Below are positions 7,208-24,163 of a stretch of 24,163 bases of DNA, piece by piece. Made by a program: the position numbers and the translations under genes. Below the pieces are notes generated by a model. The model made no database searches. It saw nothing but the letters and a program-made list of their open reading frames with translations, and was not told the origin of the DNA. The DNA is from a virus: positions 1 through 24,163 of IMG/VR virus record IMGVR_UViG_3300014819_000068; one strand, given 5' to 3'. Numbering within the stretch: the first letter of the stretch is position 1; every line of letters starts with the position of its first letter.

Positions 7208-7236
7208 CTTACATACAAAGAAATCAAAGCATCGAG

Positions 7237-7247: not shown

Positions 7248-7260
7248 CTTTTGATCACTA

Positions 7261-7265
7261 AAGGA
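7261..7265 (+). promoter_or_regulatory. Shine-Dalgarno (AAGGA) fixing the start at 7272
   Basis: AAGGA lies 6 nt before the ATG at 7272. An in-frame TTG at 7251 lies upstream of it and is therefore not the likely start. Confidence 0.65.
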
Positions 7266-7271
7266 ATAAAT

Positions 7272-7892
7272 ATGGAAAAATCATTAGTCCTTCCAGGACA
7301 TTTTGGAAATTCGTCTAATAATATTAAAATAATAAAAAATTTTATTGAATTAGATGATCTAAAAACAATACAGAAATTTCTTCCCACAATAAATGAGTGG
7401 ATGGATGCTGGGGAAAACCAATACGCTGAAGACGGCACATGTATCTACGATTCGTCTTATTGGCAGAATAGACAATGTAGTTACGATATTTTATCGAGGA
7501 TAAATCTTGATATCTATAATCTAATTGATAAATATATTATAAAAATGCAGTGGTTTTTAGAAAATCAATTTAAAGTTCGCTTAACTGTTAGACCCCCAGT
7601 CATAATTAGATGGTTTCCCGGCTTAGAGCAACGACCACACGCCGATAAACAGTTAAATGACGGATCTCCGAATCCGTTTCCAACTTATGATTTAAATTCA
7701 CTTCTTTATTACAATGACGACTTTGAAGGTGGCGAATTATATTATCCACAACATGATATAGTCGTAAAACCAAAACCAGGACTGGCTGTAGCTCATCCGG
7801 GAGATGTAAATTATCTTCACGGAGTAAAAATGGTTACCAAAGGAGAAAGATTTACTACACCATCTTTTTATACGATAACGGAATTGTTATAG
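7272..7892 (+). CDS. 2OG-Fe(II) oxygenase on the plus strand
   Basis: This encodes 206 residues. It is another P4H-like dioxygenase: RWFPGLEQRPHADKQ gives H123 and D125, SLLYYNDDFEGGELYYPQ is the strand pair after the motif, and YLHGVKMVTKGERFTTPSF gives H183 and the 2OG-binding R193. The subfamily differs from both the tandem paralogues and the gene at 6458. It is one of only two plus-strand genes. It is read from its own promoter, and only 4 bp separate its stop from the convergent stop of the gene at 7897, with no obvious terminator between. The substrate is unknown. Confidence 0.9.
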   Translation: MEKSLVLPGHFGNSSNNIKIIKNFIELDDLKTIQKFLPTINEWMDAGENQYAEDGTCIYDSSYWQNRQCSYDILSRINLDIYNLIDKYIIKMQWFLENQFKVRLTVRPPVIIRWFPGLEQRPHADKQLNDGSPNPFPTYDLNSLLYYNDDFEGGELYYPQHDIVVKPKPGLAVAHPGDVNYLHGVKMVTKGERFTTPSFYTITELL

Positions 7893-9234: not shown

Positions 9235-9651
9235 TTATGTATTATTCCAACCCAAGAAGTTGCCACAACTGTCACGTACTTCAGGACCATAGAAAAAGAC
9301 GCCAAAGCATGGTGGGAAATATGGTGGGAAGAACGGTGGGAAAAACGGTGGGAAGAACGGTGGGAAAAACGGTGGGAAGAATGGTGGGAAAAACGGTGGG
9401 AAAAACGGTGGGAAAAACGGCGGAAAGAATGGCGGAAAGAACGGCGGGAAATATGGTGGAAAATATGGTGGGAAGAAGGGGCTATGAATAGTGTAATTGA
9501 TTGGTGTACCCAATGGAGTCACTGTTGTATCGGTTACGGCGTTTTTAACCTTATCAAGATCTCCAGAAACTGCGGTTGATTCTGCGGTTACGTTACCTAC
9601 AGTAAAACCCGCATTGGTAATAGTTGTATTAGCGGTTGCTTTTGCTGTTCC
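9235..9651 (-). CDS. PASTA-like domain plus (FFPP)14 repeat protein, 3' part after +1 shift
   Basis: This frame opens with Gly (GGA, 9651) and gives about 138 residues. Joined to the 24 residues encoded before the CGG at 9652, it forms a 162-residue protein. Residues about 20-80 look like a PASTA unit: KPTIAA-GTAKATANTTITNAGF, then TVGNVTAESTAVSGD and VTPLGTPINYTI, including the Gly just after the shift. Then come 14 four-residue units FFPP or YFPP (9310-9477), and a tail CFGVFFYGPEVRDSCGNFL with GWNNT at the end. PASTA units bind cell-wall or glycan ligands in bacteria, so a virion adhesin is plausible. The proline-rich tract is a candidate target of the P4H-like oxygenases (inference). The only in-frame standard start is a GTG at 9522, which would lose most of the PASTA unit. 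Confidence 0.7.
   Translation of the reverse strand, partial: GTAKATANTTITNAGFTVGNVTAESTAVSGDLDKVKNAVTDTTVTPLGTPINYTIHSPFFPPYFPPYFPPFFPPFFPPFFPPFFPPFFPPFFPPFFPPFFPPFFPPFFPPYFPPCFGVFFYGPEVRDSCGNFLGWNNT
9310..9477. repeat. 12-bp tandem repeat encoding 14 FFPP/YFPP units
   Basis: There are fourteen in-register 12-bp units, about GGTGGGAARAAC on the plus strand with scattered synonymous changes. On the minus strand they encode Phe/Tyr-Phe-Pro-Pro. Slippage or recombination could alter copy number without breaking the frame. Confidence 0.85.
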
Positions 9652-9725: not shown

Positions 9726-11438
9726 TTATGCTGCCAAGTCTCCTAGTGCTACCCATGTATCGGTAGCTCTCTTTATAAGTGTAGCAGATGACCATTGTGC
9801 GCGCAACTTAAGCCCTGGTGTGGCATTAATCGTTACGCCTGATTGGCCAGCTATAGTTGTTTGACCTGCTCCGGTCTGCAGTACTGTTATCGTAGTTCCA
9901 ACCGGGAAGGCTACGTTTGCGTTGGTGGGGACGGTTAGGTTATGACCAGAAGCCACGCTCATTTCAACCATCTTTGACCTGTCTGCAAGAACAAGGGTAT
10001 AAGCGGCTGTTTGGGCATTTGTTAGTGTGTCACCCACAATTCTTTCATACTTTGTTCCGTCATTTGTAAACTCCCAACAGTCGTCTGTTTCATTCCATCT
10101 AACCAGAACATTTGTTGATGTACCGCGCTCTACTTCAATGCCAGCATTTTCTGATGGTGATCCAGTAACATCGTTATTTAAAACGATAATATTATCTGAA
10201 ACATTCAAAGTTGCGGTATTAATTGTTGTGGTTGTTCCGTTTACTGTTAGGTCTCCAGAAACAGTGAGGTTTCCGGCGACTGTGGGATTTGATGTATTTA
10301 TCCAAGCTGATCCGTTATATAGAAGAACCTGGTTTGCAACGGCAGATGTAATTGTAACATCGCCAACATCGTCTAGGGCATTAATTGTTGGTATCGATGC
10401 ATTAACCCAAGCGCTACCATTGTATTTAAGATACTGATTTGTAGCGTTGCCTGTTATTGTTACATCGCCAACATCATCAAGATTATTAATCGTTGGAATG
10501 TCAGCCCACTGTAAACCGCTTGCAGTTGAGCTATTCGCTTTAAGGAATTGACCATTTGTTCCTGCAGCCAGTCTACCAACAGTGTCTGCTGCGGAAGCAA
10601 CAATAAGGTCACCTTTTGCATCAACAATTGAATTTGCGATATACGTATTAGCGGCAGTCGCAGTTGTAAGATAAGTGCTAGAGGCGGTTGCGGTTGTAAG
10701 ATAGGTGCTAGAGGCGGTTGCGGTTGTAAGATAGGTGTTAGCTGCCTCTGTGCTCAATAAGCGCAACCCAATCGCCGTATTAACTCCGGATAGATCAACT
10801 TGTGAAGACTCTTTGTCAGTAACCCTTCCGTATTGATCAACCGTTATTGAACTTATAAAATTAAGAGTATTTGCGCCATTGACATTGTTAACGTTGACAC
10901 TTGCTAAGTCGATGTTATCTGCATTGACGACTATTCTTGCAGAATTTGCTGTTTGCACATTAAAGTAACTTCCATCAAGAACTAAACCAGTTCCAGCTAA
11001 AAATGAACCAGCGGAGCTAAACTGAACTACGTTTATAGCGTCCGTTCCAACAACAAATGTATCTGGATTTGATACTGTCAGCACGAATCCTTTTCCAGCA
11101 GATGTTCCGTTGGTGACAAAGATATAGGCGCCTGGTATTTCACTAGCCTCATTGCACAAACCGCACCTAGTCAAAACCCAGGGAGTTGATCCATCACCAA
11201 CAGTTGTGACAACATATCTACCATTTTGGGCTGCTGTAGTTTGATTTTTTACCAAAATTCCTTGATTGACAGAAAATCCAGACAATGAGTCAACTGTAAG
11301 TGCGCCGTTTGAATTAGCTGTTAATGTTGCGCCAACTCCGTTTGTTCCATTATTGTACGTTGCATCAAGATTGGCTATTGTAGCTACCCTTGCGGAAGGT
11401 TTTGCTTTAATCCCGCTTGCAATTTCGTCAACATAACC
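9726..11438 (-). CDS. Modular tail-fibre/adhesin protein, 3' part after +1 shift
   Basis: This gives 570 residues from the Gly codon at 11438. Joined to the 71 residues before the CGG at 11439, the protein has about 641. After the junction it reads GYVDEIASGIKAKPSARVAT, normal for phage fibre proteins in which 'ATK-x-YVDE' starts a helical neck. Further on come three 10-residue units (TYLTTATASS), two 'LDDVGDVTIT' segments, and the module with VSDNIIVLNNDVTGSPSENA that recurs in the other fibre genes. The C-terminus has a beta-rich tip (TTITVLQTGAGQTTIAGQSG). It is a probable trimeric fibre or receptor-binding structural protein. Without the shift, the only start is a TTG at 11486 with out-of-context residues. 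Confidence 0.8.
   Translation of the reverse strand, partial: GYVDEIASGIKAKPSARVATIANLDATYNNGTNGVGATLTANSNGALTVDSLSGFSVNQGILVKNQTTAAQNGRYVVTTVGDGSTPWVLTRCGLCNEASEIPGAYIFVTNGTSAGKGFVLTVSNPDTFVVGTDAINVVQFSSAGSFLAGTGLVLDGSYFNVQTANSARIVVNADNIDLASVNVNNVNGANTLNFISSITVDQYGRVTDKESSQVDLSGVNTAIGLRLLSTEAANTYLTTATASSTYLTTATASSTYLTTATAANTYIANSIVDAKGDLIVASAADTVGRLAAGTNGQFLKANSSTASGLQWADIPTINNLDDVGDVTITGNATNQYLKYNGSAWVNASIPTINALDDVGDVTITSAVANQVLLYNGSAWINTSNPTVAGNLTVSGDLTVNGTTTTINTATLNVSDNIIVLNNDVTGSPSENAGIEVERGTSTNVLVRWNETDDCWEFTNDGTKYERIVGDTLTNAQTAAYTLVLADRSKMVEMSVASGHNLTVPTNANVAFPVGTTITVLQTGAGQTTIAGQSGVTINATPGLKLRAQWSSATLIKRATDTWVALGDLAA
10651..10740. repeat. Three 30-bp tandem repeats
   Basis: The second and third copies (10681-10710 and 10711-10740) differ at one base; the first (10651-10680) is more diverged. 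They encode TYLTTATASS-type decapeptides in the neck of the fibre protein. Confidence 0.8.
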
Positions 11439-11652
11439 GTTTTGTCGCCAAAGACGTTGAGGTGCTTCCCGCATTAGATGCAACAACTGAAGTTACATTT
11501 AAAATTCCAGTAGCAGAAATGTTTGCAACAACATTGCCATCAGTGCCCTTAAATTCAACCAATGGAGCAGTAGCGCCATTGGCGGCCTTAAATACGACTG
11601 CTTCATCATTAACTGTTATTTCTGGTGCTGTTTCAAATCTTAAACGGGCCAT
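11428..11652 (-). CDS. 5' part of the 9726 fibre gene, ends after CGG
   Basis: The ATG at 11652 has an AGGAG Shine-Dalgarno 4 nt upstream, so translation clearly starts here. The 74 codons read MARLRFETAPEITVNDEAVV, then FEVKGTDG-like beta segments (VEFKGTDGNVVANISATG) and SVVASNAGSTSTSLATK. Codon 72 is CGG, then Leu-Cys-stop. The truncated product would be only the N-terminal virion-attachment part of the fibre. This head has no obvious separate function. Confidence 0.7.
   Translation of the reverse strand: MARLRFETAPEITVNDEAVVFKAANGATAPLVEFKGTDGNVVANISATGILNVTSVVASNAGSTSTSLATKRLC
11436..11439 (-). other. +1 shift site 3: CGGT
   Basis: The minus strand reads ACA-AAA-C-GGT-TAT-GTT. Frame 0 gives Thr-Lys-Arg-Leu-Cys-stop. 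Skipping the C at 11439 gives Thr-Lys-Gly-Tyr-Val-Asp-Glu, the usual neck sequence of such fibres. Confidence 0.75.
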
Positions 11653-11723
11653 GGTTCTCCTATAAGCTTAGTTATTGGTATAATCAAATGCTCGTTGAAT
11701 ATAGTAATGGCTTATTCATAAAA

Positions 11724-12530
11724 TTATTGTGTTATTCTCTTTAAATATTCTAACATTTTACCGTGGTATTTTATGCGCCCAAAGTGGGTTAAGTTAATGG
11801 TTGGGTCTACCCAAACTTTTCCACCCATTTTCTGCCAATATCTACAAAATCCATAGTCTTCAGAAAGGAATCTGCCATCTTCGTCTACGTATGAATTAAA
11901 AAGAGCATAACCGTATTCTTTTTCGATATCATGCAATGCGCCAGTATCGTCATTGTATTTTAATTTTTTATATTTTTTAAACATTTTTTCAAATACTTGT
12001 CGCTTTATTAACATAAAGCCTGTTCCAGCTTCGTAGCATTCTATGGCACCATTTTCTATATTAAGCTGGACTTCGCCAGGCTTAGTAAGATGCACCACAT
12101 ATCTTGTTGCGTATTCCATCAGATCTTTTGAATCAAGATCTTTAAGAGCTCCATCTTTAACTCTTTCCCAGTTTATTTCTTTGATCGGATAAGAAGCCGT
12201 CATAACGTCCTTATCGTGCCATAGCATCTTGAGAACCGCTTCTTTGTCAAATTGAAGATCTGTATCTATAAACATAAAGTGAGTAGATGTCTCACTGCCC
12301 ATAAATTTAGCTACTAAATTATTTCTAGCTCGATTAATTAAAGAATCTGATATTGTACAGACTGAGTACTTAAGACCAATTTCTTTAAAATACAAACATG
12401 CCTGCATAAAACTCATCATGAACGGTTCTGTTACATGAGAGTCGTAACACGGAAGAGCAAAGAAAACATTCCATTCTTGAATTTTTTCTTTTGGGATTGT
12501 TATATTAATATTTTGTTGTTCTATAGACAT
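11724..12530 (-). CDS. Glycosyltransferase, GT-A fold
   Basis: This encodes 268 residues from the ATG at 12530. NVFFALPCYDSHVTEPFMMS starts the nucleotide-binding half, SDSLINRARNNLVAKF follows, and THFMFIDTDLQF carries the metal-binding DxD (D89, D91). The C-terminal part has GTGFMLIKRQVF and RFLSEDYGFCRYWQKMGGKV, typical of GT2-like or Anp1-like phage transferases, with the acceptor-side ED pair. It probably adds a sugar to a virion protein, host surface glycan or DNA base; the position among fibre genes favours virion decoration (inference). A perfect TATAAT lies 7 nt before this ATG. A second ATG three codons upstream (12539) lacks a ribosome site, so I prefer 12530. Confidence 0.88.
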   Translation of the reverse strand: MSIEQQNINITIPKEKIQEWNVFFALPCYDSHVTEPFMMSFMQACLYFKEIGLKYSVCTISDSLINRARNNLVAKFMGSETSTHFMFIDTDLQFDKEAVLKMLWHDKDVMTASYPIKEINWERVKDGALKDLDSKDLMEYATRYVVHLTKPGEVQLNIENGAIECYEAGTGFMLIKRQVFEKMFKKYKKLKYNDDTGALHDIEKEYGYALFNSYVDEDGRFLSEDYGFCRYWQKMGGKVWVDPTINLTHFGRIKYHGKMLEYLKRITQ

Positions 12531-12537
12531 AATTCCC

Positions 12538-12543
12538 ATTATA
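12538..12543 (-). promoter_or_regulatory. Consensus -10 (TATAAT) 7 nt before the glycosyltransferase ATG
   Basis: The minus strand reads TATAAT-GGGAATT-ATG, placing the transcription start at or next to the ATG of 12530. GGGA could alternatively act as a weak Shine-Dalgarno on a longer transcript. Confidence 0.45.
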
Positions 12544-12551
12544 GCATAATG

Positions 12552-13544
12552 CTACCAGGTTGACAAAGAAAATCTCTTCCATGTGTTTTCGTCAACACAT
12601 ATATAAATATAATTTTCATCATAAGCTATGTCTCCCTTTTGACCATCTGAGGATGATGTTGTGGGGGCTGCTACTGTAATGTCGTTAAAAGAAGGTGGAG
12701 TTACTTTTCCGCCAACACCTTTAAATACCGTTATTTCTTTAGAAGAAGATTCTGGCGCTACCTCGAAAGCAACTGAAACCGCATTTGCTGTAGTAGCTTC
12801 CCAATATGGCTTTACGAATCCATAAGGAGCTTCTGTATCTCTGACTATTATTGCAACATCTCTTGAATTTAAATTATGGTTTATTTCAAATACAGAACTA
12901 GAACCATCTCCAACTATTTTAGAATAACTAAACCCTTCTAGTGGAAGAAAAACAGAAGCTACAATAGAGTTTGCCAATGGAGCTGCGCTAAAATCTAATG
13001 TAACTTTATTTGAAGATGTTGCAAAAGTGGCTGCTTCAACAAAGTCGTAGTCGGCGTTAGCATTTCTTAAGGTTACAACCACATCTCTTGAACCAAGTCC
13101 ATGATTAATTTCAAAGCTTGAGTTTGATCCGTTACCTATTGTTTGGCTGTGGTAATCGTACTCCCCTGCAGAACTTATGAATACTCTTCTTGAGTTTGAC
13201 GAAACTGGAGCAGAGAAATCTAACATTACAGTGTTGGCAGTTGTAGCTTCACTTCTTACAAAAATTGCATCGTATGGACTTGCTGCATCGAGTACTGAAA
13301 CAACCACATTTCTGCTATCCAAGTTATGCGTGACAACATAAGAAGAACTTGATCCATCCCCAATTGTTGTGGCATAGACCGAGGGTTGGCCGTCTACTTC
13401 ATCACTAGCCGGAGCAAATTTGCTACCATCAAATTTAAGTATTTGACCAGAGGTGGCATTTGAAAGATCTAACTGTACGCCAGATACCGTAATCGTATCA
13501 CCGACTACGAGCCCATTCTTAACTACGAAATCTTTGTCTGCCAC
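12552..13544 (-). CDS. Tail-fibre-like protein with three 'IGDG...HNLxSRDV' repeats
   Basis: This encodes 330 residues from a GTG at 13544; a GGGA lies 12 nt upstream and no ATG is available. The N-terminus reads DKDFVVKNGLVVGDTITVSG, common at the start of phage fibre proteins. Three beta modules of about 65 residues follow, each starting (I/V)G(D/N)GSxSxxxxxH and containing (N/D)SRxVxVxxxxxxxxY; single copies occur in the genes at 13609 and 18992. The C-terminus (DIAYDENYIYICVDENTWKR) is a tip seen in many phage structural proteins. It is likely a virion fibre or tail appendage. A TATAAATA element lies 57 nt upstream. Confidence 0.85.
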   Translation of the reverse strand: MADKDFVVKNGLVVGDTITVSGVQLDLSNATSGQILKFDGSKFAPASDEVDGQPSVYATTIGDGSSSSYVVTHNLDSRNVVVSVLDAASPYDAIFVRSEATTANTVMLDFSAPVSSNSRRVFISSAGEYDYHSQTIGNGSNSSFEINHGLGSRDVVVTLRNANADYDFVEAATFATSSNKVTLDFSAAPLANSIVASVFLPLEGFSYSKIVGDGSSSVFEINHNLNSRDVAIIVRDTEAPYGFVKPYWEATTANAVSVAFEVAPESSSKEITVFKGVGGKVTPPSFNDITVAAPTTSSSDGQKGDIAYDENYIYICVDENTWKRFSLSTW

Positions 13545-13600
13545 TAAAGTTCACTGTCCCTCTAGTTTAAAAACTATTAAATTGTTGAGGTATTTCTACC

Positions 13601-13608
13601 TATTTATA
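13601..13608 (-). promoter_or_regulatory. TATAAATA element upstream of the gene at 12552
   Basis: The minus strand TATAAATA lies between two fibre genes, touching the stop of the upstream one and 57 nt before the GTG at 13544. It matches the T4 late-promoter core and could equally act as a -10 box. Confidence 0.4.
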
Positions 13609-16600
13609 TTACACCGCTATTAGTGTTCTTGCAACTTTGACAGTGGCATTTGTGCTTGCTGCATCGGTTATTGTAACTCTGAGGAGAACGTTACCCGAAG
13701 ATATCGAAGTTGAAACAGACAAGGGGATTCTTGATGCACCAAGTTCGATTATTGCATATTCCGAGAGGTAGGAATCTGTACCATCATGAACAAGCAGTAC
13801 TTCTGAACTTGTATACTTAGAACCTTGGGTTACCTGGATTAGGTATTTGGCTGTTCTATAAGCCGTCTTATCAAAGCTATCAACTGTTGTTATTGTATTT
13901 ACAGAAACAGCTTGAGTTGATGTATTGAGTTCACCAGTCGAGTCGATTGTGAATGCACCAGCTGAAACCGTATTTGTTACTGTCGCATTAGCAAACGACA
14001 CTGAGTCACCAGTTCCAACTGACTGACCAATTGCGAATGTCGGATTTGCACCCTCGCCTCCGGCATTTGTGATTGTTACACCAGTACCTGCAGTAACATT
14101 AGCCACAAATGATCCAGATGCTATATTTGAATAATTGCTCGAATCAGAACTTATCTGCCATGTATCTGTAGCTTCATTCCAGCGGAATTCTGCATCTGAA
14201 GATGTACCACGCTCGATCTTGATTCCGGCATTGAGCGATGGAGCTGCGGTAACTCCGCTGTTGAGGACTATTATATTGTCCTCAACTGACAGGGTCTCTG
14301 TATTCAGAGTGGTAGTATTACCATTAACAGTGAGGTTGCCCGAAACTGTTAAGTCTTGTCCAATCGTCACATTTGATGGCAAGCCAACTGTAATCGCACC
14401 AGCAGAAGCGGAAACTTCAATTTCATTTGCAGTCCCAGTAAGTGAAGTTACGGCATTTGATGAAAGATCGCTTACTTGCGATGCAAGAATGGATATCATT
14501 GAGTTGGTTGCATTTGTCAAGCGACCCTGAGCATCAACTGTTATTATCGAAACAGAATCAGCGGCACCGTAAGTATTGGCCACTACGGTTGTATTTGCCA
14601 AGCTTACTGTTACGTTGCCTGAAGAGCCACCACCACTAAGACCTGTTCCAGCAGTAACCGACTCAATGTCGCCAGCGTCGTTTGTGAAGCTGATTACACC
14701 AGTGCTGCTATTGTAGGAAAGGTCTCCAGATACGCTTATAGCTGCTCTAGCGTTTGAAGTAAAGTCTGTAACTTGCGATGCAGTGATCGATATTGTTGAG
14801 TTGCCTGCTGTTGTCAAACGACCTTGTGCGTCGACAGTGAAGGTGGATACTGTGTTTGCAGCACCGTACGATCCTGCTGTAACGGCAGTATTACCTAAGG
14901 TAACTGTTACATTAGAACCTTCTCCACCTGCTCCAGAAAGCGTTATTCCTGTTCCGGCTGTCAAGTTTGCAACATAGTCACCAACGGTGTCTGTACCAAG
15001 ATCAATTGCATCATTTACCCAGGCTGTACCATTCCACTTGAGGAAATCTCCACTTGCAGCAGAGGTAATGTTTACGTCACCAATATCATTAAGTGCGGTA
15101 ATCGAAACTGCAGCAACGTCGTTTGTTGTTGCTACGTTGGCATAGGTTGTGCCATCCGAGCTTATTTGCCACTTATCGTCTGTTTCGTTCCACTTAAAGA
15201 CTGCGTTATTAGAAGTTCCTCTTTCAACTTCGATTCCGGCATCAAGTGTTGGCGATCCAGTCACTGTGCTATTGAGAACTATTATATTATCTTCAACATT
15301 AATAGTTTCTGTATTAAGGGTGGTTGTGTTACCCTGAACAGTAAGGTTTCCGGTTACAGTAAGATCCTGGCCAATTGTTACATAAGATGGAAGGCCAACG
15401 GTTACTGCCCCATTAGAAGCCGAGACTTCTACCTCGTTTGCTGTTCCAGTTAAGGATGTCACCGCAACAGATGCAAGGTCAGAGACCTGTGAACCAGTTA
15501 TCGAGATAGTTGAATTACCAGCTGCTGTTAGGCGACCTTGTGCATCGACTGTGAATGTTGCAACTGTATTTGCTGATCCATATGATGCTGCAGTTACGGT
15601 AGTGTTAGCTAGGTCTATAGTGACATTGCCCGAAGAACCGCCACCACTAAGGCCAGTGCCAGCTGTTACAGATTCGATATCACCAGCGTCGTTTGTAAAA
15701 CTTATTACACCAGTGCTTGAGTTATAGCTTAAATCACCAGAAACGCTTATTGCTGCTCTGGCGTTGGAGGTAAAGTCGCTAACTTGAGATGCGACAATTG
15801 ATATTGTGGAATTACCGGCTGCGGTGAGGCGACCTTGTGCATCAACGGTGAATGTTGCAACTGTATTGGATCCACCGTAGCTACCAGATGTAACCGACGT
15901 ATCATCTAGGTTTACGGTAATTGTATCAGTTGCACTTGCAACCGTTGAAAGTCCAGTTCCACCAGCAATCGTAAGCGTGTCTGAACCCGATGTTATTGTT
16001 TGGTTTGAACCAGAGTCGCCTGCTACTGCAAAAGATGTTGCTATATTAGCGATTGTATTATTTACATTAGAAATAGCATTATCGGTGTATGAAGTTGCAT
16101 TTGAATACGCTGTGTCTACATCGGAATTGCTTGCAATATTGTAATAATTTGTTCCATCATTTGTAAAATCCCACTTGTCACTTGTTTCATTCCAACGGAT
16201 CATTACATCGGCTGATGTACCGCGTTCAATTTGGACACCAGCGTTTTGAGATGGCGCTCCAGTCACATCGTGGTTGAGAACTATTATATTGTCAGAAACA
16301 TGTAGCTCTTCGGTATCTACCGTTGTTGTATTACCACGAACAATAAGGTTTCCAGTCACAGTAAGGTCTGAACCAACCGAAAGAGTATTGCTTATTGTAA
16401 CGTTTGCGGGAAGCCCGACAGTTACTGCTCCGTTAGAAGCCGAAACCTCTACTTCGTTTGCTGTTCCACTGAGTGACGTTACAGCAGCTGTTGAGAAGTC
16501 TGTTACCTGAGAAGCTGTTATTGCAATTGTTGTGTTGCTAGCTGAGGTTAAACGGCCTTGAGCATCTACGTTAAATGCTGCGACTGAGTTTGCGCTACCA

Positions 16601-17532
16601 TAGTTTCCAGCTGTAACTGATGTATTGTCAAGATTAACTGTAACCGTATCTGTATTGGAGGTTACGGTGCTGAGGCCAGTTCCTCCAGCAATTGTTAGCG
16701 TATCTGTTCCTGATGTAATTGTTTTGCTAGCACCAGCGTCTGCGGCAACTTCAAACGAGGTAGCAACATTAGCGATTGCGTTGTCTGTGTAAGATGTTGC
16801 GTTAGCATAGGCGTTAGATGCTTCGCCATAGGCGTCATATGTGTTTGCTGTAACGGCTATTGTTGGATTAGAGCCTTCTCCTCCCGCATTTGTAATAGTT
16901 ATGCCAGTTCCTGCGGTAACGTTAGAAACATAATTGCCAACTGTATCTGTAGAAAGATTAACGGGATCATTGATCCAAGCTGAACCATTATAACGGAGGA
17001 AGTCTCCATTAGCAGCGCCGCTAATTGAAACATCGCCAAGATCGTCTATTGAGCTAATGGTTATCGTTGAACCTGCAACGGCTGCGTATACGCCAACTCT
17101 TACGGAATTGCTTGAGGGGGCAGTTGAAAAGTCAAGTGTAACGGTTCCAGTTGTTGTTGCTTCCCATCTAACTTCAATAACCTCGTATGGGCTTGCTGCA
17201 TTTCTTGCGACAACTACAACGTCACGAGTACCAAGGTTGTGTGTTATTGTGAACGTTGTTGCCGAACCATTGCCAATTGTTTCAACGTGAACAGTACCAG
17301 CCAAACCAGTGTCCGAACCAGGAACAAAACTATTGCCATCAAATTTAAGAACCTGATTTGTTGTTGCACCAGTAGGATCAATTGTAACCCCATTAATGCT
17401 AAGACTGTTTGCAGAAACATTGCCAACATTAAGAGTTTCTGGTAGCGAGAGTGTATAAACACCGCTTGTTGCGTTCGAGGAAACAGATACCTGATTTGCG
17501 GTTCCAACAACATTAGATATTAAGTTAACACC
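13609..17532 (-). CDS. Giant modular tail-fibre protein, 3' part after +1 shift
   Basis: This gives 1,307 residues from the Gly codon at 17532, and about 1,361 when joined to the 54 residues before the CGG at 17533. It is a chain of beta modules: one 'IGNGSATTFTITHNLGTRDV' unit, then repeats with GQxxLTVTGNL...NTTTxNTE, DNIIVLN and FKWNETDDKW (three copies), VTVNLDxTSVTAG / VDAQGRLT (several copies), and two copies of a segment containing AISVSGDLSYNSSTGVISF. The C-terminus (TAYRTAKYLIQVTQGSKYTS) is the tip domain of many T4-like and cyanophage structural proteins. It is probably a long trimeric fibre. Between 17535 and 17304 there is no start codon although the residues are clearly fibre-like, which supports an upstream start. 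Confidence 0.85.
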   Translation of the reverse strand, partial: GVNLISNVVGTANQVSVSSNATSGVYTLSLPETLNVGNVSANSLSINGVTIDPTGATTNQVLKFDGNSFVPGSDTGLAGTVHVETIGNGSATTFTITHNLGTRDVVVVARNAASPYEVIEVRWEATTTGTVTLDFSTAPSSNSVRVGVYAAVAGSTITISSIDDLGDVSISGAANGDFLRYNGSAWINDPVNLSTDTVGNYVSNVTAGTGITITNAGGEGSNPTIAVTANTYDAYGEASNAYANATSYTDNAIANVATSFEVAADAGASKTITSGTDTLTIAGGTGLSTVTSNTDTVTVNLDNTSVTAGNYGSANSVAAFNVDAQGRLTSASNTTIAITASQVTDFSTAAVTSLSGTANEVEVSASNGAVTVGLPANVTISNTLSVGSDLTVTGNLIVRGNTTTVDTEELHVSDNIIVLNHDVTGAPSQNAGVQIERGTSADVMIRWNETSDKWDFTNDGTNYYNIASNSDVDTAYSNATSYTDNAISNVNNTIANIATSFAVAGDSGSNQTITSGSDTLTIAGGTGLSTVASATDTITVNLDDTSVTSGSYGGSNTVATFTVDAQGRLTAAGNSTISIVASQVSDFTSNARAAISVSGDLSYNSSTGVISFTNDAGDIESVTAGTGLSGGGSSGNVTIDLANTTVTAASYGSANTVATFTVDAQGRLTAAGNSTISITGSQVSDLASVAVTSLTGTANEVEVSASNGAVTVGLPSYVTIGQDLTVTGNLTVQGNTTTLNTETINVEDNIIVLNSTVTGSPTLDAGIEVERGTSNNAVFKWNETDDKWQISSDGTTYANVATTNDVAAVSITALNDIGDVNITSAASGDFLKWNGTAWVNDAIDLGTDTVGDYVANLTAGTGITLSGAGGEGSNVTVTLGNTAVTAGSYGAANTVSTFTVDAQGRLTTAGNSTISITASQVTDFTSNARAAISVSGDLSYNSSTGVISFTNDAGDIESVTAGTGLSGGGSSGNVTVSLANTTVVANTYGAADSVSIITVDAQGRLTNATNSMISILASQVSDLSSNAVTSLTGTANEIEVSASAGAITVGLPSNVTIGQDLTVSGNLTVNGNTTTLNTETLSVEDNIIVLNSGVTAAPSLNAGIKIERGTSSDAEFRWNEATDTWQISSDSSNYSNIASGSFVANVTAGTGVTITNAGGEGANPTFAIGQSVGTGDSVSFANATVTNTVSAGAFTIDSTGELNTSTQAVSVNTITTVDSFDKTAYRTAKYLIQVTQGSKYTSSEVLLVHDGTDSYLSEYAIIELGASRIPLSVSTSISSGNVLLRVTITDAASTNATVKVARTLIAV

Positions 17533-17695
17533 GTATTATGGCGTTAGCAGTGCTGTTTTTATAAAATAATTTACCATCAGCTACGTTAAGTGCCAATTCT
17601 CCGAGCATCAACGAACTAGGAGCATTGTTTGCTTCGTCGGATCTCTTTAAAAGGAGTGTATTGTTAACCGCAAATATAGAACCACTAAATGGCAT
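17525..17695 (-). CDS. 5' part of the giant fibre gene, ends after CGG
   Basis: This 56-codon frame from the ATG at 17695 has AGAGG 5 nt upstream. It reads MPFSGSIFAVNNTLLLKRSD, then APSSLMLGELALNVADGKLF, the typical first residues of phage fibre proteins; compare SSLENAELAFNEVDDVLYYG in the gene at 20700. Codon 55 is CGG, then Cys and stop. It is the start of the giant fibre, not a separate gene. Confidence 0.7.
   Translation of the reverse strand: MPFSGSIFAVNNTLLLKRSDEANNAPSSLMLGELALNVADGKLFYKNSTANAIIRC
17530..17533 (-). other. +1 shift site 1: CGGT
   Basis: The minus strand reads ATA-ATA-C-GGT-GTT-AAC. Frame 0 gives Ile-Ile-Arg-Cys-stop. Skipping the C at 17533 gives Ile-Ile-Gly-Val-Asn-Leu and runs on through the 1,307-residue frame. 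Confidence 0.75.
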
Positions 17696-17700
17696 AGTTA

Positions 17701-17707
17701 CCTCTCT
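17701..17707 (-). promoter_or_regulatory. Shine-Dalgarno (AGAGAGG) of the giant fibre gene
   Basis: The minus strand reads AGAGAGG-TAACT-ATG. The strong site shows that translation begins at 17695, so the frame break at 17533 lies inside a translated gene. Confidence 0.7.
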
Positions 17708-17715
17708 GATTATTG

Positions 17716-17743
17716 TTGACTAGGGCATTATCTATGATAGAAT
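17716..17743 (+). promoter_or_regulatory. sigma70-type promoter for the plus-strand gene at 17801
   Basis: TTGACT (17716-17721), a 16-bp spacer, then TAGAAT (17738-17743). Each box matches the consensus at five of six bases. It points at the ATG of 17801 and overlaps the minus-strand promoter. Confidence 0.55.
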
Positions 17744-17755
17744 AGTAATGATCAA
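17727..17755 (-). promoter_or_regulatory. sigma70-type promoter for the giant fibre gene
   Basis: The minus strand has TTGATC (17755-17750), a 17-bp spacer and GATAAT (17732-17727), about 32 nt before the ATG at 17695. It is interleaved with the divergent promoter, so the two probably compete. Confidence 0.45.
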
Positions 17756-17800
17756 ATATCAAATAGTATGAAATAATTTATAATTTATAAATGGAGTTTT

Positions 17801-18088
17801 ATGAAAGTTGAGCGCGGAATCGAATACAGGGGCGTTGTTGCTGAATCAAGTCCAAAGGATAGTTGGGCAGATCAGGTTATTCCGCAGGCTTTAGAAAAAA
17901 AATACTATATATCAGGAAGAACTGGTGCAGAAGCCATGATTGCTTTTTGGCAGGATGTTTCTGAAGGAAAGTATATGGCTCTATGTGATGAATTCCAGAT
18001 ACCCAATCACCTAGGACTGGTTCACTCTGCTAGTACCTGGGCTAAAGAGCTTATCGTTTCTGGCAGGATACTACTCAGGAAAGATTAA
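17801..18088 (+). CDS. Small plus-strand protein of unknown function
   Basis: This encodes 95 residues with no recognised family. It opens MKVERGIEYRGVVAESSPKD and has a helical centre (AEAMIAFWQDVSEGKYMALC) and a basic end (SGRILLRKD). There is no signal peptide or membrane segment. The ATG at 17801 has GGAG 4 nt upstream and its own sigma70-type promoter, unlike its minus-strand neighbours. Its stop overlaps the end of the convergent gene at 18075 by 14 bp. Independent, probably early or host-polymerase expression suggests a regulatory or host-takeover role, but that is inference. Confidence 0.7.
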   Translation: MKVERGIEYRGVVAESSPKDSWADQVIPQALEKKYYISGRTGAEAMIAFWQDVSEGKYMALCDEFQIPNHLGLVHSASTWAKELIVSGRILLRKD

Positions 18089-18641
18089 GTCTTCTGTAGG
18101 TTTTTGCCGGTGTTGTTACAACACTTGGATCCCAATAATCACCTTTAAACAAATTATAAATAACATTATTTATATCATTAAATAATAATATTTTAGTTTT
18201 GTTTAAATTTATTTTCTTTTCATCCACATTTGGTGGCCAGCCATATATTGCGCCATCGACATAGTGAAATGATTTGTTTTCGGACATACGATATAGTTCT
18301 TGTTCTGATTCTCTGCCAAAAAGAGTGTTTAAATCCAAATAAATATTTTTATATTTATATTTAACTGCTAACTGCAAAGAGTCCTTAGCTATTCCGCTTG
18401 TTCCAATACAGATGAATATATCTATATTATCAAATAATTCCTCAAGACAAGAGACAACTTGTATGTTACACCTTTTTGCATTTTCTATGGTCTTGGATGA
18501 TCTTCCATCTAAAAAAGTATAAAATACTCCTTTTTCAGACAAAGTTCTAGCTATGCTAGAACCCATTTTCCCAGCAGAAAGAATACCTATTTTATATTTA
18601 TTACTGATTGAACCAGGGGCCACTTGGGGATGTGTTTGCAT
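18075..18641 (-). CDS. Truncated NAD(P)-binding beta-hydroxyacid-dehydrogenase-like protein
   Basis: This encodes 188 residues from the ATG at 18641; an ATG at 18662 is an alternative, and neither has a good Shine-Dalgarno. KYKIGILSAGKMGSSIARTL is the Rossmann dinucleotide loop (G-x-x-x-A-G-K-M-G). FICIGTSGIAKDSL, YLDLNTLFG and FHYVDGAIYGWPPN match strands 4-6 of the 6-phosphogluconate / 3-hydroxyisobutyrate dehydrogenase superfamily. Those enzymes have about 290 residues; here the C-terminal helical domain, which carries the catalytic Lys, is absent. It may act as a nucleotide-binding protein or need a partner. Its start overlaps the end of the gene at 18601 by 41 nt, so translation is probably coupled. 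The rest of the family logic does not reveal a substrate. Confidence 0.75.
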   Translation of the reverse strand: MQTHPQVAPGSISNKYKIGILSAGKMGSSIARTLSEKGVFYTFLDGRSSKTIENAKRCNIQVVSCLEELFDNIDIFICIGTSGIAKDSLQLAVKYKYKNIYLDLNTLFGRESEQELYRMSENKSFHYVDGAIYGWPPNVDEKKINLNKTKILLFNDINNVIYNLFKGDYWDPSVVTTPAKTYRRLNLS

Positions 18642-18936
18642 CGGAAAGACCAGAAGCCTCATATTTTGACTTTACCCAATCAGAGCAGAACAAAAACCAA
18701 TCAGATTGAGCTTGATTTTCTCCAGAGTATTCTGCGCCTCTTTTAAGATATTCAATTAAACCAAGAATAATACTTTTTTCGTCCGTTGGAACCACAGAAG
18801 CTTGCGATACTTGCGTAGCCTGTTGCTTTGATTCCTGTTGTGTCAAAGAAGATGTTGGCTGCGAACCATCTGGATATTCAACATGAGTAGAATGAGTGTC
18901 TGAACTTACTGGTGTTAACAATGAATCATTTGACAT
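18601..18936 (-). CDS. Hydrophilic protein of unknown function
   Basis: This encodes 111 residues. The N-terminal 50 are Ser/Thr/Gln-rich and probably disordered (SSLTQQESKQQATQVSQASV). The C-terminal half looks folded and helical (EKSIILGLIEYLKRGAEY, then SDWFLFCSDWVKSKYEAS). I do not recognise a family. The ATG at 18936 has AAGGAG 8 nt upstream and a perfect extended -10 (18962-18970), so this is the first gene of a short unit with the Rossmann protein at 18075. Confidence 0.75.
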   Translation of the reverse strand: MSNDSLLTPVSSDTHSTHVEYPDGSQPTSSLTQQESKQQATQVSQASVVPTDEKSIILGLIEYLKRGAEYSGENQAQSDWFLFCSDWVKSKYEASGLSDANTSPSGPWFNQ

Positions 18937-18961
18937 TTTATAAACTCCTTTTTCTTCACTA

Positions 18962-18970
18962 ATTATAGCA
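18962..18970 (-). promoter_or_regulatory. Consensus extended -10 promoter (TGCTATAAT)
   Basis: The minus strand reads TGC-TATAAT with a predicted start about 19 nt before the ATG at 18936; the AAGGAG lies between. It is the best promoter match in the window and lies in the gap after the fibre gene at 18992. Confidence 0.6.
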
Positions 18971-18991
18971 GGAGATTATTCTACCAGCAAC

Positions 18992-20299
18992 TTATCCAGT
19001 AACAACAACTCTGCGAGAAGAAGAATCTGGTGGAGTGGCAAATGTAACTTCAATTGAGTTTAAATTGCTCCTTCTTACAGCTGCATAGACGGTTTCGTAA
19101 TAGCCCGTTTCGTATATTTCAACCAATACGTCTCTAGTGCCCAAACCATGGGTTACGGTAAATGTGGTATTTGCTCCATCGCCAATAGTTGCGGAGTACT
19201 TACTTACCGTACCAAGGCCGTCTTCTGCGGTGTCTTCATCTGGAATAAATTTAACACCGTTAAACTTTAATACTTGACCAAAAACAGCTCCAGTTGTATC
19301 TATTTCAATACCATCAACAATTAAATGTTCTGCCGTAACGGTGTTAAAAGACGGATCGTCCGAAACAGATATTTCCGGACTAAGTGCACCAACTCCTATT
19401 TCTCCGATTATTTCTATATTATTTCCTGAAAGTAGTGTTTCTACAAAACCAAAATCTATTTTGTCAGATGTTACACTGCCGTTAGCTATCGTTAGAGTTA
19501 GGGTTGCATTTGCTAAATTGGATATTAAAACAGATCCGTCTACATCTCCATTGGCTGTAAGAGTAAACTCTGAATTTATCGATATAACAGGATTGGAGCC
19601 TTCTCCTCCAGAGTTAGAAATTATAATTCCTGTACCTGCAGATATATTAGCAAGGTAGTCTCCGACGGTATCTGTAGCTAAGTTAACTGGATCATTGATC
19701 CAAGAACTTCCGTTATATCTAAGAAAATCTCCATTAGCTACGTTAGCGATACTGACATCAAATAAGTCATTTATTGTTCTTGTATCTATATATGAAACCG
19801 AGTTTGAATACGCCGTATTTGCTACTGTATTCGCATATGCTACTGCGTTTGCTTCTGCGGTCGAAGCTGCGCCGTACTCGTCATAAGTACCAGCTGTAAC
19901 CGAAATAACCGGAGTCATTCCCTCTCCTGAGTTATCGGTTATAGTTATTCCGGTGCCTGCAACAACATTTGCCATGTAACTACCAGTAGTATCAGTACCC
20001 AGGGTAACAGAATTCGGCTGTATTAATGTATTGATAGTTACATCTTGTGTTCCGTCAATAAAAACATTGCCAGCAACATCGCCACTAAGTATAATATTTC
20101 TTGCGGTAGTCCAGGAATTTGCAGAATTTGCTGTTCCGCTTAGATTTCCAGTTACGTTTCCATTTACGTTTCCATTTACGTTTCCACTAAGATTTCCAGT
20201 TACATTGCCAGTTAAATTACCATTTACATTACCGGTTACATTTGCGGTTATTGTTGTTGATGTAAGAACAACCGTATTGTTAACTTTTATAGATTTACC
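18992..20299 (-). CDS. Modular tail-fibre protein, 3' part after +1 shift
   Basis: This gives 435 residues from the Gly codon at 20299; with the 124 residues before the CGG at 20300 the protein has about 559. The junction LAS-GKSIKVNNTVVLTS matches LAS-GKTYNISGVTVLSN of the intact neighbour at 20700. Next come Gly-Asn repeats (GNVTGNL, GNVNGN; 20141-20246), likely a beta-helix, then DVAGNVFIDGTQDVTINTL, VTAGTYDEYGAAS, a DxVSIANVANGDFLRYNGSSW-type module and a final 'IGDGANTTFTVTHGLGTRDV' unit ending RRVVVTG. It is a probable fibre component. The first in-frame start (ATG 19975) would discard over 100 clearly related residues. Confidence 0.82.
   Translation of the reverse strand, partial: GKSIKVNNTVVLTSTTITANVTGNVNGNLTGNVTGNLSGNVNGNVNGNVTGNLSGTANSANSWTTARNIILSGDVAGNVFIDGTQDVTINTLIQPNSVTLGTDTTGSYMANVVAGTGITITDNSGEGMTPVISVTAGTYDEYGAASTAEANAVAYANTVANTAYSNSVSYIDTRTINDLFDVSIANVANGDFLRYNGSSWINDPVNLATDTVGDYLANISAGTGIIISNSGGEGSNPVISINSEFTLTANGDVDGSVLISNLANATLTLTIANGSVTSDKIDFGFVETLLSGNNIEIIGEIGVGALSPEISVSDDPSFNTVTAEHLIVDGIEIDTTGAVFGQVLKFNGVKFIPDEDTAEDGLGTVSKYSATIGDGANTTFTVTHGLGTRDVLVEIYETGYYETVYAAVRRSNLNSIEVTFATPPDSSSRRVVVTG
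20141..20246. repeat. 12-bp imperfect tandem repeats (Gly-Asn repeats)
   Basis: Roughly nine 12-bp units such as TTTCCATTTACG on the plus strand encode GN(V/L)(T/N/S) tetrapeptides on the minus strand. The units vary mainly at synonymous positions. Confidence 0.75.
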
Positions 20300-20672
20300 G
20301 AGAAGCTAAATTAATATCCTCAGAAGATTCCCAAGATTGTGTTGAATTAGACCAAAGAAATGTTTTATCAGTAGTTCCTTTTAGGACTATTCCACCACCA
20401 TCTGCGGTAGTATTACTTGGAGAAGAAACAGTTCCAAGTTCAATATTTACATCCTCTACACTAAGTGTTTCAGTGCTAATTGTAACAACATTGCCACTTA
20501 CGACAAGGTTACCAGATATAGACAGCCCATCTTCAGTACTAATTAATGTATTAGATGATTGAAGTAAATTTAAAGAAGAAGCTACTAGTGTATTAGCGTT
20601 GTTTCGGTAGTAAAAGATTCCATTAGTTGGATCGATTGCTATTTGATCACTGGTTATATTAGGTATTGGCAT
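20295..20672 (-). CDS. 5' part of the 18992 fibre gene, ends after CGG
   Basis: This 125-codon frame runs from the ATG at 20672; only a weak GAAAGA precedes it. It reads MPIPNITSDQIAIDPTNGIF, then a module with ISGNLVVSGNVVTISTETLS, GGIVLKGTTDKTFLW and SSEDINLAS, closely parallel to the gene at 20700. Codon 125 is CGG and codon 126 is TAA. As a stand-alone protein it would stop in the middle of a conserved module, so it is read as the first part of the fibre. Confidence 0.75.
   Translation of the reverse strand: MPIPNITSDQIAIDPTNGIFYYRNNANTLVASSLNLLQSSNTLISTEDGLSISGNLVVSGNVVTISTETLSVEDVNIELGTVSSPSNTTADGGGIVLKGTTDKTFLWSNSTQSWESSEDINLASR
20297..20300 (-). other. +1 shift site 4: CGGT, verified by an internal paralogue
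   Basis: The minus strand reads GCT-TCT-C-GGT-AAA. Frame 0 gives Ala-Ser-Arg-stop. Skipping the C at 20300 gives Ala-Ser-Gly-Lys, exactly as in the intact paralogue at 20700. Confidence 0.85.
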
Positions 20673-20699
20673 GGTGATCTTTCTTTATGTTAAAACTAT

Positions 20700-22418
20700 T
20701 TAGAATGTTCCGCCATCAATCACCGTGTTGCTAATAGTTACATCACTTAAAGAACCACCAGTAATATTAACATCATCTGCGTCTTGAACAGATATAGTTC
20801 CCAATCCCAAGGTTGTTCTAGCTATTGATGCACTTGCGCTAGATATTAAACTTCTTGCATAAGAAGTTAAATCAGCTAACGCTGCGGTTCCTGAACCGGT
20901 AAAGTATGGCAATTTATCGGCTGCGGAAGTAAGTCCAGCGAGTGCGGCTAGTTCTGCATCATAGGCTTGAACATCTGTTCCAATCGCTAAACCAAGATTT
21001 GTTCTTGCTTGAGGGGCGCTAGTTGCGCCAGTACCACCATAGGATATTGATACGGTAGAACCATTCCAAGTTCCAGAACTTATTGTTCCAACTGAAGTCA
21101 AGCTAGAGTTAACAACACTAGAACCAAGAGTCGTATTTGAAAGGACAGTTACTCCAGATATGTTGTACGTTTTACCAGAAGCTAAATCCATGTTTTCCGA
21201 AGAAGTCCAAGAATCTGTTCCATCTATCCAGTTAAACGTTTTATCTGTTGAGCCCTTAACTGTTATTCCTGCTCCATCAGCCGAACCATCAGTAGGAGAA
21301 GAAGTGTTTGCCAAAAGTATGTTTTTGTCTTCAACTGCCAAAGTCGCAGTATTTAATGTTGTAGTATTGCCCTGGACCAAGAGGTCGCCAGTAACCGTCA
21401 AATTATTTGGTATCGTGACATCATTGGCTAAGGAAAAGGTGACGTTTCCATTTGCCGCAGAAACTTGTACTTGATTTGCTGTTCCGGTGGCTGACAATAC
21501 ACCTTCATTGTTTACCGTAAATGTTCCGCCCTCAACTGCCGTATTTGTTACGGAAATACCAGTTCCTGCAGAAACAGATGCTACATAATTACCGGTGGTG
21601 TCAGTTCCAAGTGCAACAGAGTCAGCAACTATTGAAGCTGTCAGTGTTGCGTTAGCAAGATCTGTTACTGTGACACTACCACTAAGATCGCCAGCAAGTG
21701 TAATGGTGAAGTCAGCAACGTCTAAATTTACTTTAGAGTTATTATCATCATAAGAAGCAGAAATTCCACTATGTGTACCATTTGTAAGTAAAGCGGCTGC
21801 GGCGTCTTGGGCGTCTTCGGTAAAACCAGTTATTTGACCAGCATTAATATTGATTAGCGTTGTTCCAGCAGCTGTAAGTCGACCTTGTGCATCTACGGTA
21901 AAGGTAGTTACACTATTGGCTAGACCATAAGAGGCTGCAGTAACAGTTGTATTATCTAGATTGATGGTTACCGTGTCGCCAGAAATTGCAGAACTTAGGC
22001 CAACTCCACCAGCAATTGTAAGAGTGTCGGTTCCAGAAGTAATGCTGGAATTACTTCCACTATCTGCTGCTAGGTTAAAGGAAGTTGCGACTGCATTAAT
22101 TTCCGAATTAACGTTTGCTATAAGTTCGTCTACATAAAGCTTTGTTACTGCGTGAGTATTTGAGGACGGCGTTGGCACAACTACTGTGCCAGTAAATGTT
22201 TTGTTCCCAGAAATTGTTTGTGCACTAGAAAGCGTCGTAAAAGCACCTGGTCCAGCAATGGCTATTACACTTGTTGCACTTCCGCCTAAACCGCCGGTTC
22301 CTTCACCGTAGTAAAGAACATCATCGACTTCGTTAAATGCTAGTTCGGCGTTTTCTAGACTAGATGGGGCACCAGATGCGCCAGAAGACCTTCTTTTGAT
22401 TCTTAGTGTATTAGCCAT
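20700..22418 (-). CDS. Modular tail-fibre protein, intact
   Basis: This encodes 572 residues from the ATG at 22418; a GGAGG lies 12 nt upstream within the previous gene's end. MANTLRIKRRSSGASGAPSS followed by ENAELAFNEVDDVLYYGEG is a typical fibre N-terminus. It then has AVTKLYVDELIANVNSE, the VDAQGRLTAAG module, and VTGDLLVQGNTTTLNTATL with SSENMDLASGKTYNISG. The segment YDAELAALAGLTSAADKLPY, followed by TTLGLGTI, is a repeat of phage side-tail fibres. The protein ends NTVIDGGTF, resembling the end of the gene at 22421. It is the only large fibre gene in the 9726-22418 block, apart from 12552, without a CGG break, and so serves as an internal reference. Confidence 0.88.
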   Translation of the reverse strand: MANTLRIKRRSSGASGAPSSLENAELAFNEVDDVLYYGEGTGGLGGSATSVIAIAGPGAFTTLSSAQTISGNKTFTGTVVVPTPSSNTHAVTKLYVDELIANVNSEINAVATSFNLAADSGSNSSITSGTDTLTIAGGVGLSSAISGDTVTINLDNTTVTAASYGLANSVTTFTVDAQGRLTAAGTTLININAGQITGFTEDAQDAAAALLTNGTHSGISASYDDNNSKVNLDVADFTITLAGDLSGSVTVTDLANATLTASIVADSVALGTDTTGNYVASVSAGTGISVTNTAVEGGTFTVNNEGVLSATGTANQVQVSAANGNVTFSLANDVTIPNNLTVTGDLLVQGNTTTLNTATLAVEDKNILLANTSSPTDGSADGAGITVKGSTDKTFNWIDGTDSWTSSENMDLASGKTYNISGVTVLSNTTLGSSVVNSSLTSVGTISSGTWNGSTVSISYGGTGATSAPQARTNLGLAIGTDVQAYDAELAALAGLTSAADKLPYFTGSGTAALADLTSYARSLISSASASIARTTLGLGTISVQDADDVNITGGSLSDVTISNTVIDGGTF

Positions 22419-23186: not shown

Positions 23187-23957
23187 TTAAATACCTATAT
23201 CTTTTGAAACAATAATTCTATATTTATATCCAGTCTCAAAATAGGTTTTATCTTCTGTGTAATAAGCTGGGGTAGCGTCATTGGAAGGAAAATCTACGTA
23301 GACCTCCGGTTTCCAAGAGTGCATTTGTATTTTTGCATCTACGGATTCCCATCTAGATGGAGTTCTTTGAATTTTTTTTCTTTGTATCTTAAAATACTGT
23401 GAGGTTAAAAAGTTTGTTGCTGGTCTAGCGTTGAACGCTATTGTTACTCTACCATTATTGTGAGAATTATCTATATAAAAATCTCCGTTATCAGGATCAA
23501 CATCTTTTATATAGAACTCTGGATTTTTTGCTATTATTTGATACGAAGTATATGCTTCGTTAAGTACTGATTTATCTTCAATATATATTTCTTCTACAGT
23601 TGGAACTGTAATGGAAGAAACCCCAGATGGTGTGGCCGCATCCTGTTTTGTAAAGACGATATATTCTTCTGGAACAACTTCGTTTGCGGCATCAAGTAAT
23701 CCAACTAACCTAATTGCATACTCTTGACCAGAAACAAGTGTTTTATTCCAATATAGGGTAAGTGTTCTTGATATAGTGTTATAATCCGCTAATGTATTAA
23801 TTACCTTAAACGGATTCTCTACCTGGCTAGGCGTTGCAGCGCAGGTTTGAGCAATAAATTTATCATTTGTTATAGAAGCAATCTTGATAGTTCTGCCAAA
23901 TTTAATTTTAACTCTGTCCAAGTTTACTGCTGCGTAATCAATTAAATTCAGCGGCAC
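23187..23957 (-). CDS. Virion structural protein, beta-rich
   Basis: This encodes 256 residues from a GTG at 23957 with AGGAG 6 nt upstream; no ATG is nearby. PLNLIDYAAVNLDRVKIKFG and SRTLTLYWNKTLVSGQEYAI look like adhesion-type beta domains of phage baseplate or fibre proteins. The middle has YQIIAKNPEFYIKDVDPDNG, and the C-terminus ends in a positively charged beta segment (YKYRIIVSKDIGI). I do not recognise a family. It is the first gene after the terminator and may begin the fibre operon. Confidence 0.75.
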   Translation of the reverse strand: MPLNLIDYAAVNLDRVKIKFGRTIKIASITNDKFIAQTCAATPSQVENPFKVINTLADYNTISRTLTLYWNKTLVSGQEYAIRLVGLLDAANEVVPEEYIVFTKQDAATPSGVSSITVPTVEEIYIEDKSVLNEAYTSYQIIAKNPEFYIKDVDPDNGDFYIDNSHNNGRVTIAFNARPATNFLTSQYFKIQRKKIQRTPSRWESVDAKIQMHSWKPEVYVDFPSNDATPAYYTEDKTYFETGYKYRIIVSKDIGI

Positions 23958-24020
23958 GGTTTGCTCCTACGTTGTATATACAGATATTTAATTAGTAACT
24001 AAAAACGGACAAAAAGATAA

Positions 24021-24040
24021 GGGGTGGCTTTCGCCACCCC
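24021..24040 (-). terminator. Intrinsic terminator
   Basis: A perfect 8-bp stem GGGGTGGC/GCCACCCC with a TTTC loop. On the minus strand it is followed by TTATCTTTTTGTCC, a U-rich run. It terminates the gene ending at 24089 and separates it from the operon starting at 23957. Confidence 0.85.
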
Positions 24041-24049
24041 TGATCCCTT

Positions 24050-24081
24050 CTTAGGATTCCGTAACTATAACGGCCCTAAGG
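24050..24081. other. 23S rRNA helix-69-like element in a 3' UTR
   Basis: On the plus strand, 24059-24081 matches 22 of 23 bases of the highly conserved bacterial 23S segment around helix 69, which also contains the I-CeuI site (TAACTATAACGG-T-CCTAAGG). The single change is T to C at 24074; I compared it with the rRNA from memory. It forms a hairpin CCGT/ACGG (24059-24062 with 24070-24073) inside an outer stem CTTAGG/CCTAAG (24050-24055 with 24075-24080). It lies between the stops of the right-hand gene and its terminator. The minus-strand mRNA therefore carries the antisense of this rRNA segment. Confidence 0.6.
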
Positions 24082-24088
24082 ACTGTTA

Positions 24089-24163
24089 TTAGAGCGATAC
24101 CTGGTTTGTAACCGAAACTTCGTAGTTACGGGTCAGGCGTACGTTCTTAGCAACTGTGATACA
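24089..24163 (-). CDS. C-terminal end of a structural gene, partial
   Basis: A short open frame enters from the right edge and ends with two tandem stops (24089 and 24086). The visible residues read ITVAKNVRLTRNYEVSVTNQ, then VSL. This is too little for a family call. The strong terminator and tandem stops fit a highly expressed virion gene such as a capsid or tail protein, which is inference. Confidence 0.6.
   Translation of the reverse strand, partial: CITVAKNVRLTRNYEVSVTNQVSL

Follow-up and report, generated by a model that had tools for sequence, protein, structure and literature searches.

A short element antisense to helices H69-H70 of 23S rRNA, conserved in the 3' UTR of a phage capsid gene and recurrent in unrelated phages

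The 3' untranslated region (UTR) of a major capsid protein gene, located at the right end of the 24,163-nt stretch of viral DNA analyzed here (the window), carries a short element complementary to helix 69 (H69) of 23S rRNA and to the adjoining strand of H70. The element is conserved, the arms of its hairpin co-vary, its complementarity is specific, and it recurs, usually in single copy, in other phages. Judging from these sequence patterns, its RNA very probably pairs with 23S rRNA in cells, and the best explanation, in which we place middling confidence, is an abundant phage RNA that binds H69-H70 by base pairing while 50S subunits are free or still immature.

The initial annotation had described a near-perfect copy of H69 in the 3' UTR of a phage gene, and this copy is real: CCGTAACTATAACGGCCCTAAGG, at positions 24059-24081 of the plus strand, is one base off 23S rRNA. 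The minus (mRNA) strand pairs at 23 of 23 contiguous positions with nt 1908-1930 of the E. coli 23S rRNA, including one G·U pair that corresponds to the sole base difference, and the capsid mRNA thus contains a stretch antisense to H69 and to the strand entering H70. The second-best pairing run of the 91-nt mRNA segment against the complete 23S and 16S rRNAs was 12, and the chance expectation for a 22/23 match against 23S, both strands counted, was estimated at ~1e-4 per 24-kb window. The features at this end of the window are:

24089-24163, minus strand: 3' end of the major capsid protein gene (stop codon at 24089-24091; the remainder lies beyond the window end)
24059-24081, minus strand: anti-23S segment CCUUAGGGCCGUUAUAGUUACGG, target nt 1908-1930 of 23S (H69 and the 5' strand of H70)
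24050-24080, minus strand: hairpin presenting the antisense loop (outer stem CUUAGG/CCUAAG, inner stem CCGU/ACGG, loop UAUAGUU)
24010-24041, minus strand: intrinsic terminator (stem-loop at 24020-24041 plus U-rich tail; terminator scan, 9 pairs)
23187-23957, minus strand: next downstream gene (256 aa, no family match), which bounds the 3' UTR

Along the minus strand, the last codons and the TAA are followed by CCTTAGGGCCGTTATAGTTACGGAATCCTAAG, the terminator GGGGTGGCGAAAGCCACCCC and the U-rich tail, with the element starting 7 nt after the stop codon and its hairpin preceding the terminator, which would close either the capsid mRNA or an RNA generated from its 3' UTR. The hairpin has a fold energy of −12.2 kcal/mol, and the 91-nt 3' region folds with z = −4.2. 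Bacterial 3'-UTR-derived small RNAs likewise lie between a stop codon and an intrinsic terminator and have a conserved seed, but their known targets are mRNAs, proteins and other small RNAs, whereas the candidate target of the element is rRNA. A fragment of an rRNA gene or contamination was considered and rejected, as the match stops at 23 nt and the flanks are the capsid gene and the terminator; in the Rfam check, no covariance model (GOLLD, ROOL and rRNA included) matched the window above its gathering score.

Other parts of the window have peculiarities of their own. Several 2OG-Fe(II) oxygenase-like genes and a glutathione peroxidase gene (4790-5407) are found at 1036-7892, an unusual density for one phage region. 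A predicted protein of near-identical FPPFFPPF repeats, arising from a short tandem DNA repeat, is present at 9235-9522 (an ORF only, possibly no gene), and large repetitive fibre-like proteins with common modules (e.g., NLTVNGNTTT), which suggest module duplication, occupy 9726-22418.

The phage gene upstream of the element could now be identified as encoding the major capsid protein. The full protein (353 aa, HK97-type) was read from a 73-kb contig of the same phage (L001), nearly identical to the window over the common stretch, and from a close relative that also carries this stretch (L002), and it matches the phrog_3922 major head protein (E = 1.4e-26). Relatives (family 1) were gathered by capsid-protein similarity, the motif not being used. 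The element is kept in all 33 distinct family-1 capsid-gene 3' UTRs, scoring 15-19 of 19 (shuffled maximum 14), and begins 0-11 nt past the stop codon in 32 of them and at 23 nt in one. Absence from close relatives with this gene, which the initial annotation had named as counter-evidence, is therefore not what is seen. Its constant parts are CCTTAGG (antisense to 1924-1930) and GTTATAGTTAC (antisense to 1910-1920), separated by a spacer of 2-4 nt; in many members the spacer opposite 1921-1923 serves the hairpin and not 23S, so that pairing with 23S is there often bipartite. The hairpin arms co-vary while the loop antisense to H69 stays nearly constant: own-arm pairing averages −9.6 kcal/mol as compared with −7.5 kcal/mol when the partners are permuted, and none of 5000 permutations did as well; this also holds when one sequence per left-arm type is used. 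The joint change of the arms makes it an RNA element. Among 12 kinds of substitution in family 1, four keep the pairing with 23S and eight break it, a less clean pattern due in part to the left arm having to pair within the hairpin as well. The outer stem noticed by the initial annotation thus stands, and relatives conserve the antisense sequence inside it; the retained H69 stem is present here, but the H69-type inner stem (CCGT/ACGG) is limited to the phage of the window and its closest relatives and is not a conserved trait. The closest named capsid relatives (KLEB27-3, MTATph1 and ME3) have no element after the capsid gene, and the family-1 capsid protein had no match in 84,980 prokaryote species genomes.

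A second capsid gene family (family 2, phrog_1623), with no BLASTP similarity to family 1 (E = 0.4), has the element 0-5 nt past the stop codon in 19 of 46 distinct UTRs. Here, 22 of 23 substitution cells preserve the pairing with 23S through G·U, the pairing-keeping changes being T for C across from G1930 or G1910 and G for A across from U1917. The substitution counts rest on the capsid-anchored UTR set, which was relied on because a position-wise wobble table is biased by the search pattern. As it is missing from over half of family 2, the element is not essential; the UTRs without it (L208, L211, L217 and relatives) have a different short stretch, rich in A+T (e.g., TAATTAGTAATTAGAAATTTGTGATTGGGG), ahead of a similar terminator.

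Pattern scans covered 2.9 million viral contigs. The first, unbiased one gave 116 parsed hits, of which 106 lie downstream of the family-1 capsid gene and a few elsewhere, five of these few following the family-2 capsid gene; no hit was in rRNA. A second pattern, TTRGGACCGTTRTRGTTR, had 80 hits in viral contigs, with a single real 23S (L003), and because such a pattern also arises by chance its reverse was scanned as a control. The 80 hits represent 39 distinct contexts, 35 of them clear of any ORF of ≥ 80 aa. A companion segment, CGCTAY (antisense to 1929-1935), accompanies 30 of the 39, directly upstream or ≤ 130 nt downstream, and frequently occupies a terminator-hairpin loop. The reversed pattern gave 25 hits, with 17 of 18 distinct contexts inside ORFs and the companion segment in none of the 18; the second scan must therefore include chance hits, such as L324 and L357 (in ORFs) and probably L315. 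In the family of the window this second segment (UCGCUAC in a downstream loop) is absent, only the first being present. Genuine rRNA was set aside, i.e., L003, L286 and short INPHARED records annotated as or matching 23S; L286 (MZ092003.1, Paenibacillus phage Pd_22F, annotated as a complete genome) holds full 23S and 5S genes that are probably host sequence.

In an independent test, the core was removed and the sequence downstream of it in 50 clusters was searched for 7-nt complements across the whole 23S rRNA; a cluster here is a set of similar flanks and does not count evolutionary gains. Complementarity peaked at 1930-1937, adjoining the target of the core, in 18 of the 50 clusters (≤ 13 in shuffles) and in 15 of the 26 clusters with the spacer ACC (≤ 11 in shuffles). 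The longest 23S run fell at H69-H70 in 41 of 50 cluster representatives, and it reaches 29-31 contiguous paired nt in the L296, L297, L293 and L352 groups. Gene neighbours vary, including ribonucleotide reductase (L292), spanin (L303), tRNA clusters (L298, L312, L364) and capsid genes. In a search of 25 genomes or records, the element is single copy where present, save for weaker 3-mismatch matches. The 84,980 prokaryote species genomes had no match to a strict pattern of the stand-alone form, and BLAST of four stand-alone RNAs against INPHARED gave no match. Separately, CCTTAGG-N-GTTATAGTTAC occurs 62 nt before a small lipoprotein gene in L121, L135, L139 and L180 (family 3), a single related group and hence possibly a chance match.

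The conservation, the G·U-preserving changes, the recurrence and the second adjacent antisense segment together point to pairing with 23S, which supports the earlier proposal that the mRNA strand carries an antisense able to pair with host 23S or to kiss the H69 loop. The other proposal, that the opposite strand mimics H69, did not hold up: the inner H69-like stem is too restricted for mimicry to be the conserved trait, and the order of the two antisense segments is swapped in many phages, whose complement is consequently no contiguous rRNA copy.

A form of the RNA ~110 nt long and with both antisense segments is common to the Vibrio phages PWH3a-P1, qdvp001, R16F, 10AMN, P018-4 and IBT_VpB-34, with more diverged copies in VnaP, 11895-B1 and VmeM-32 (nine phages in all). 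The flanking genes differ between phages, and in the PWH3a-type copies both departures from perfect antisense keep the pairing via G·U. The best match of a covariance model of this RNA was in ICP1 (26.5 bits, E = 0.009, weak alone), at the 5' end of a 1,011-nt ORF-less interval between ORF139 and ORF140 (L403, 598-1608, minus strand), where the first segment is degenerate (CACCTTACGACCGTTATGTTAAGG) and the second intact (CTCGCTACC). ICP1 is known to produce an ~800-nt non-coding RNA that is its most abundant transcript and for which no target or function has been published (PMC7567579); it is made throughout infection from a locus conserved in related phages, and a review calls its function open (PMC9040626). 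This long RNA probably, though not provenly, carries a diverged copy of the anti-H69 element at its 5' end. The similarities are that its 5' end fits the Vibrio model, the UCGCUACC segment is kept, and it is ORF-less, abundant and phage-borne, while it differs from the short element in the capsid 3' UTR of the window by its length and its degenerate first segment. The same ICP1 interval contains GCTACC (antisense to 23S 1929-1934) four times, with ~0.25 expected.

Phage T4 offers a lead of a different kind. Its rnaD (L402, 1554-1672, minus strand) forms a hairpin, ACCGGGTCGCTACCGGT, with the loop TCGCTACC antisense to 23S 1929-1936, an 8-nt match with a chance of ~0.2% in that length, and GTAGCG (sense) is present twice in T4 RNA C. 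As T4 had no match to the Vibrio RNA covariance model, the link to RNA D is only a lead.

H69 is exposed on free 50S subunits, where it forms the main bridge to the 30S subunit, and H69-H71 fold among the last parts of the 50S. In our proposed mechanism, the element would be the ribosome-recognition part of a phage RNA antisense to H69-H70, this RNA being, in the phage of the window, the terminator-closed 3' UTR of the capsid gene, which in phages generally is among the most strongly expressed late genes. It may act within the capsid mRNA or as a small RNA derived from the 3' UTR. Contact would start with a kissing interaction between the hairpin loop UAUAGUUAC and the exposed H69 loop (nt 1911-1919), after which pairing would extend through CCUUAGG into nt 1924-1930; such a kiss-then-spread antisense hairpin is the simplest model. 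In other phage groups, stand-alone RNAs would supply a further antisense loop, UCGCUACC, directed at nt 1929-1937. Since H69 is the main inter-subunit contact, with H70 beside it, the bound RNA should sit on free or late-assembling 50S subunits, and it would hinder 30S joining or final maturation. An RNA with so abundant a target has to match it in amount, and both the location in the capsid mRNA and the high level of the ICP1 transcript agree with this. Action mainly in trans seems more likely than not, and inhibition of subunit joining or assembly is put forward only tentatively. Synthetic PNA oligomers, which like the element are antisense to H69 but are not natural RNA, inhibit the growth of E. 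coli (Kulik et al. 2017, in the form in which PMC7038079 cites it).

Other readings have to be set against this one. Plain inhibition is not obviously useful to a phage that itself needs ribosomes, a problem that disappears if pairing at H69-H70, a functional hot spot, guards ribosomes from a host nuclease or a ribosome-inactivating abortive-infection toxin and so spares translation for the phage. MazF-type toxins cutting 23S near nt 1940 are indeed known, but a candidate nuclease in the hosts is hypothetical and the pairing itself should block subunit joining, which makes such protection unlikely. Slightly better placed, albeit still rather unlikely, is an action in cis, by which the 3' UTR would tether the 50S subunit to the capsid mRNA via H69 for more translation or for protection from 3' decay. 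Two unrelated capsid families have the element within about a dozen nt of the stop codon, an adjacency that is also compatible with a cis role, and plant viruses provide an analogy: BTE-type 3' translation enhancers are 3' UTR stretches that pair with eukaryotic 18S rRNA and act in cis. They share with the element the viral 3' UTR and the complementarity to rRNA, but the element targets bacterial 23S and has single-copy stand-alone versions. Elsewhere the antisense comes after a ribonucleotide reductase gene, after a spanin gene, or within RNAs that have no ORF and lie close to tRNA genes, usually as one copy per genome, and the only consistent partner is 23S. It is because gene contexts vary in this way that blocked joining or maturation is favoured over shielding or tethering.

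Destruction of host 23S, with the RNA-23S duplex recruiting RNase III or a similar enzyme and ribosomes being recycled late in infection, we regard as improbable. A pairing of ~20-31 nt is a plausible substrate and a capsid 3' UTR would be made late; however, in many copies the pairing is interrupted and includes G·U pairs, and the ICP1 relative is made at all stages of infection (PMC9040626). By far the least probable is a feature of the DNA, i.e., a homing-endonuclease target or a relic of recombination with an rRNA operon, both of which had been suggested for the window. Homing endonucleases are common in phages, and the I-CeuI site overlaps the H69-H70 stretch of 23S. Nevertheless, the constraint lies at the RNA level, as seen in the hairpin covariation, and no insertion or endonuclease gene was found at the site in the window or at the capsid-family loci. 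A relic is contradicted by flanks that are not rRNA and by recurrence in many unrelated contexts, and both variants by the swapped segment order and by the largely intergenic contexts, often before terminators.

Pairing with H69-H70 on the 50S subunit remains our preferred reading. Large phage RNAs of unknown function, often near tRNA genes, are represented by GOLLD and ROOL (PMC7567579), and none of the loci scanned had an Rfam match to either. Searches of an open-access library found no earlier report of a phage RNA acting via rRNA pairing, and no Rfam family was found for the element. To our knowledge, no natural phage RNA is known to act in this way.

On balance, we consider it reasonably probable that many tailed-phage lineages independently carry a dedicated, abundant RNA that pairs with H69-H70 of host 23S to control ribosomes, with the capsid 3'-UTR element and the ICP1 RNA as two members of this unrecognised class. 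That unrelated phages repeatedly target one 23S hot spot suggests a general RNA strategy of ribosome control and points to a natural counterpart of the anti-H69 antisense inhibitors. For the most abundant ICP1 transcript, so far unexplained, it supplies a target that can be tested, and it may bear on the long-unexplained stable RNA D of T4.
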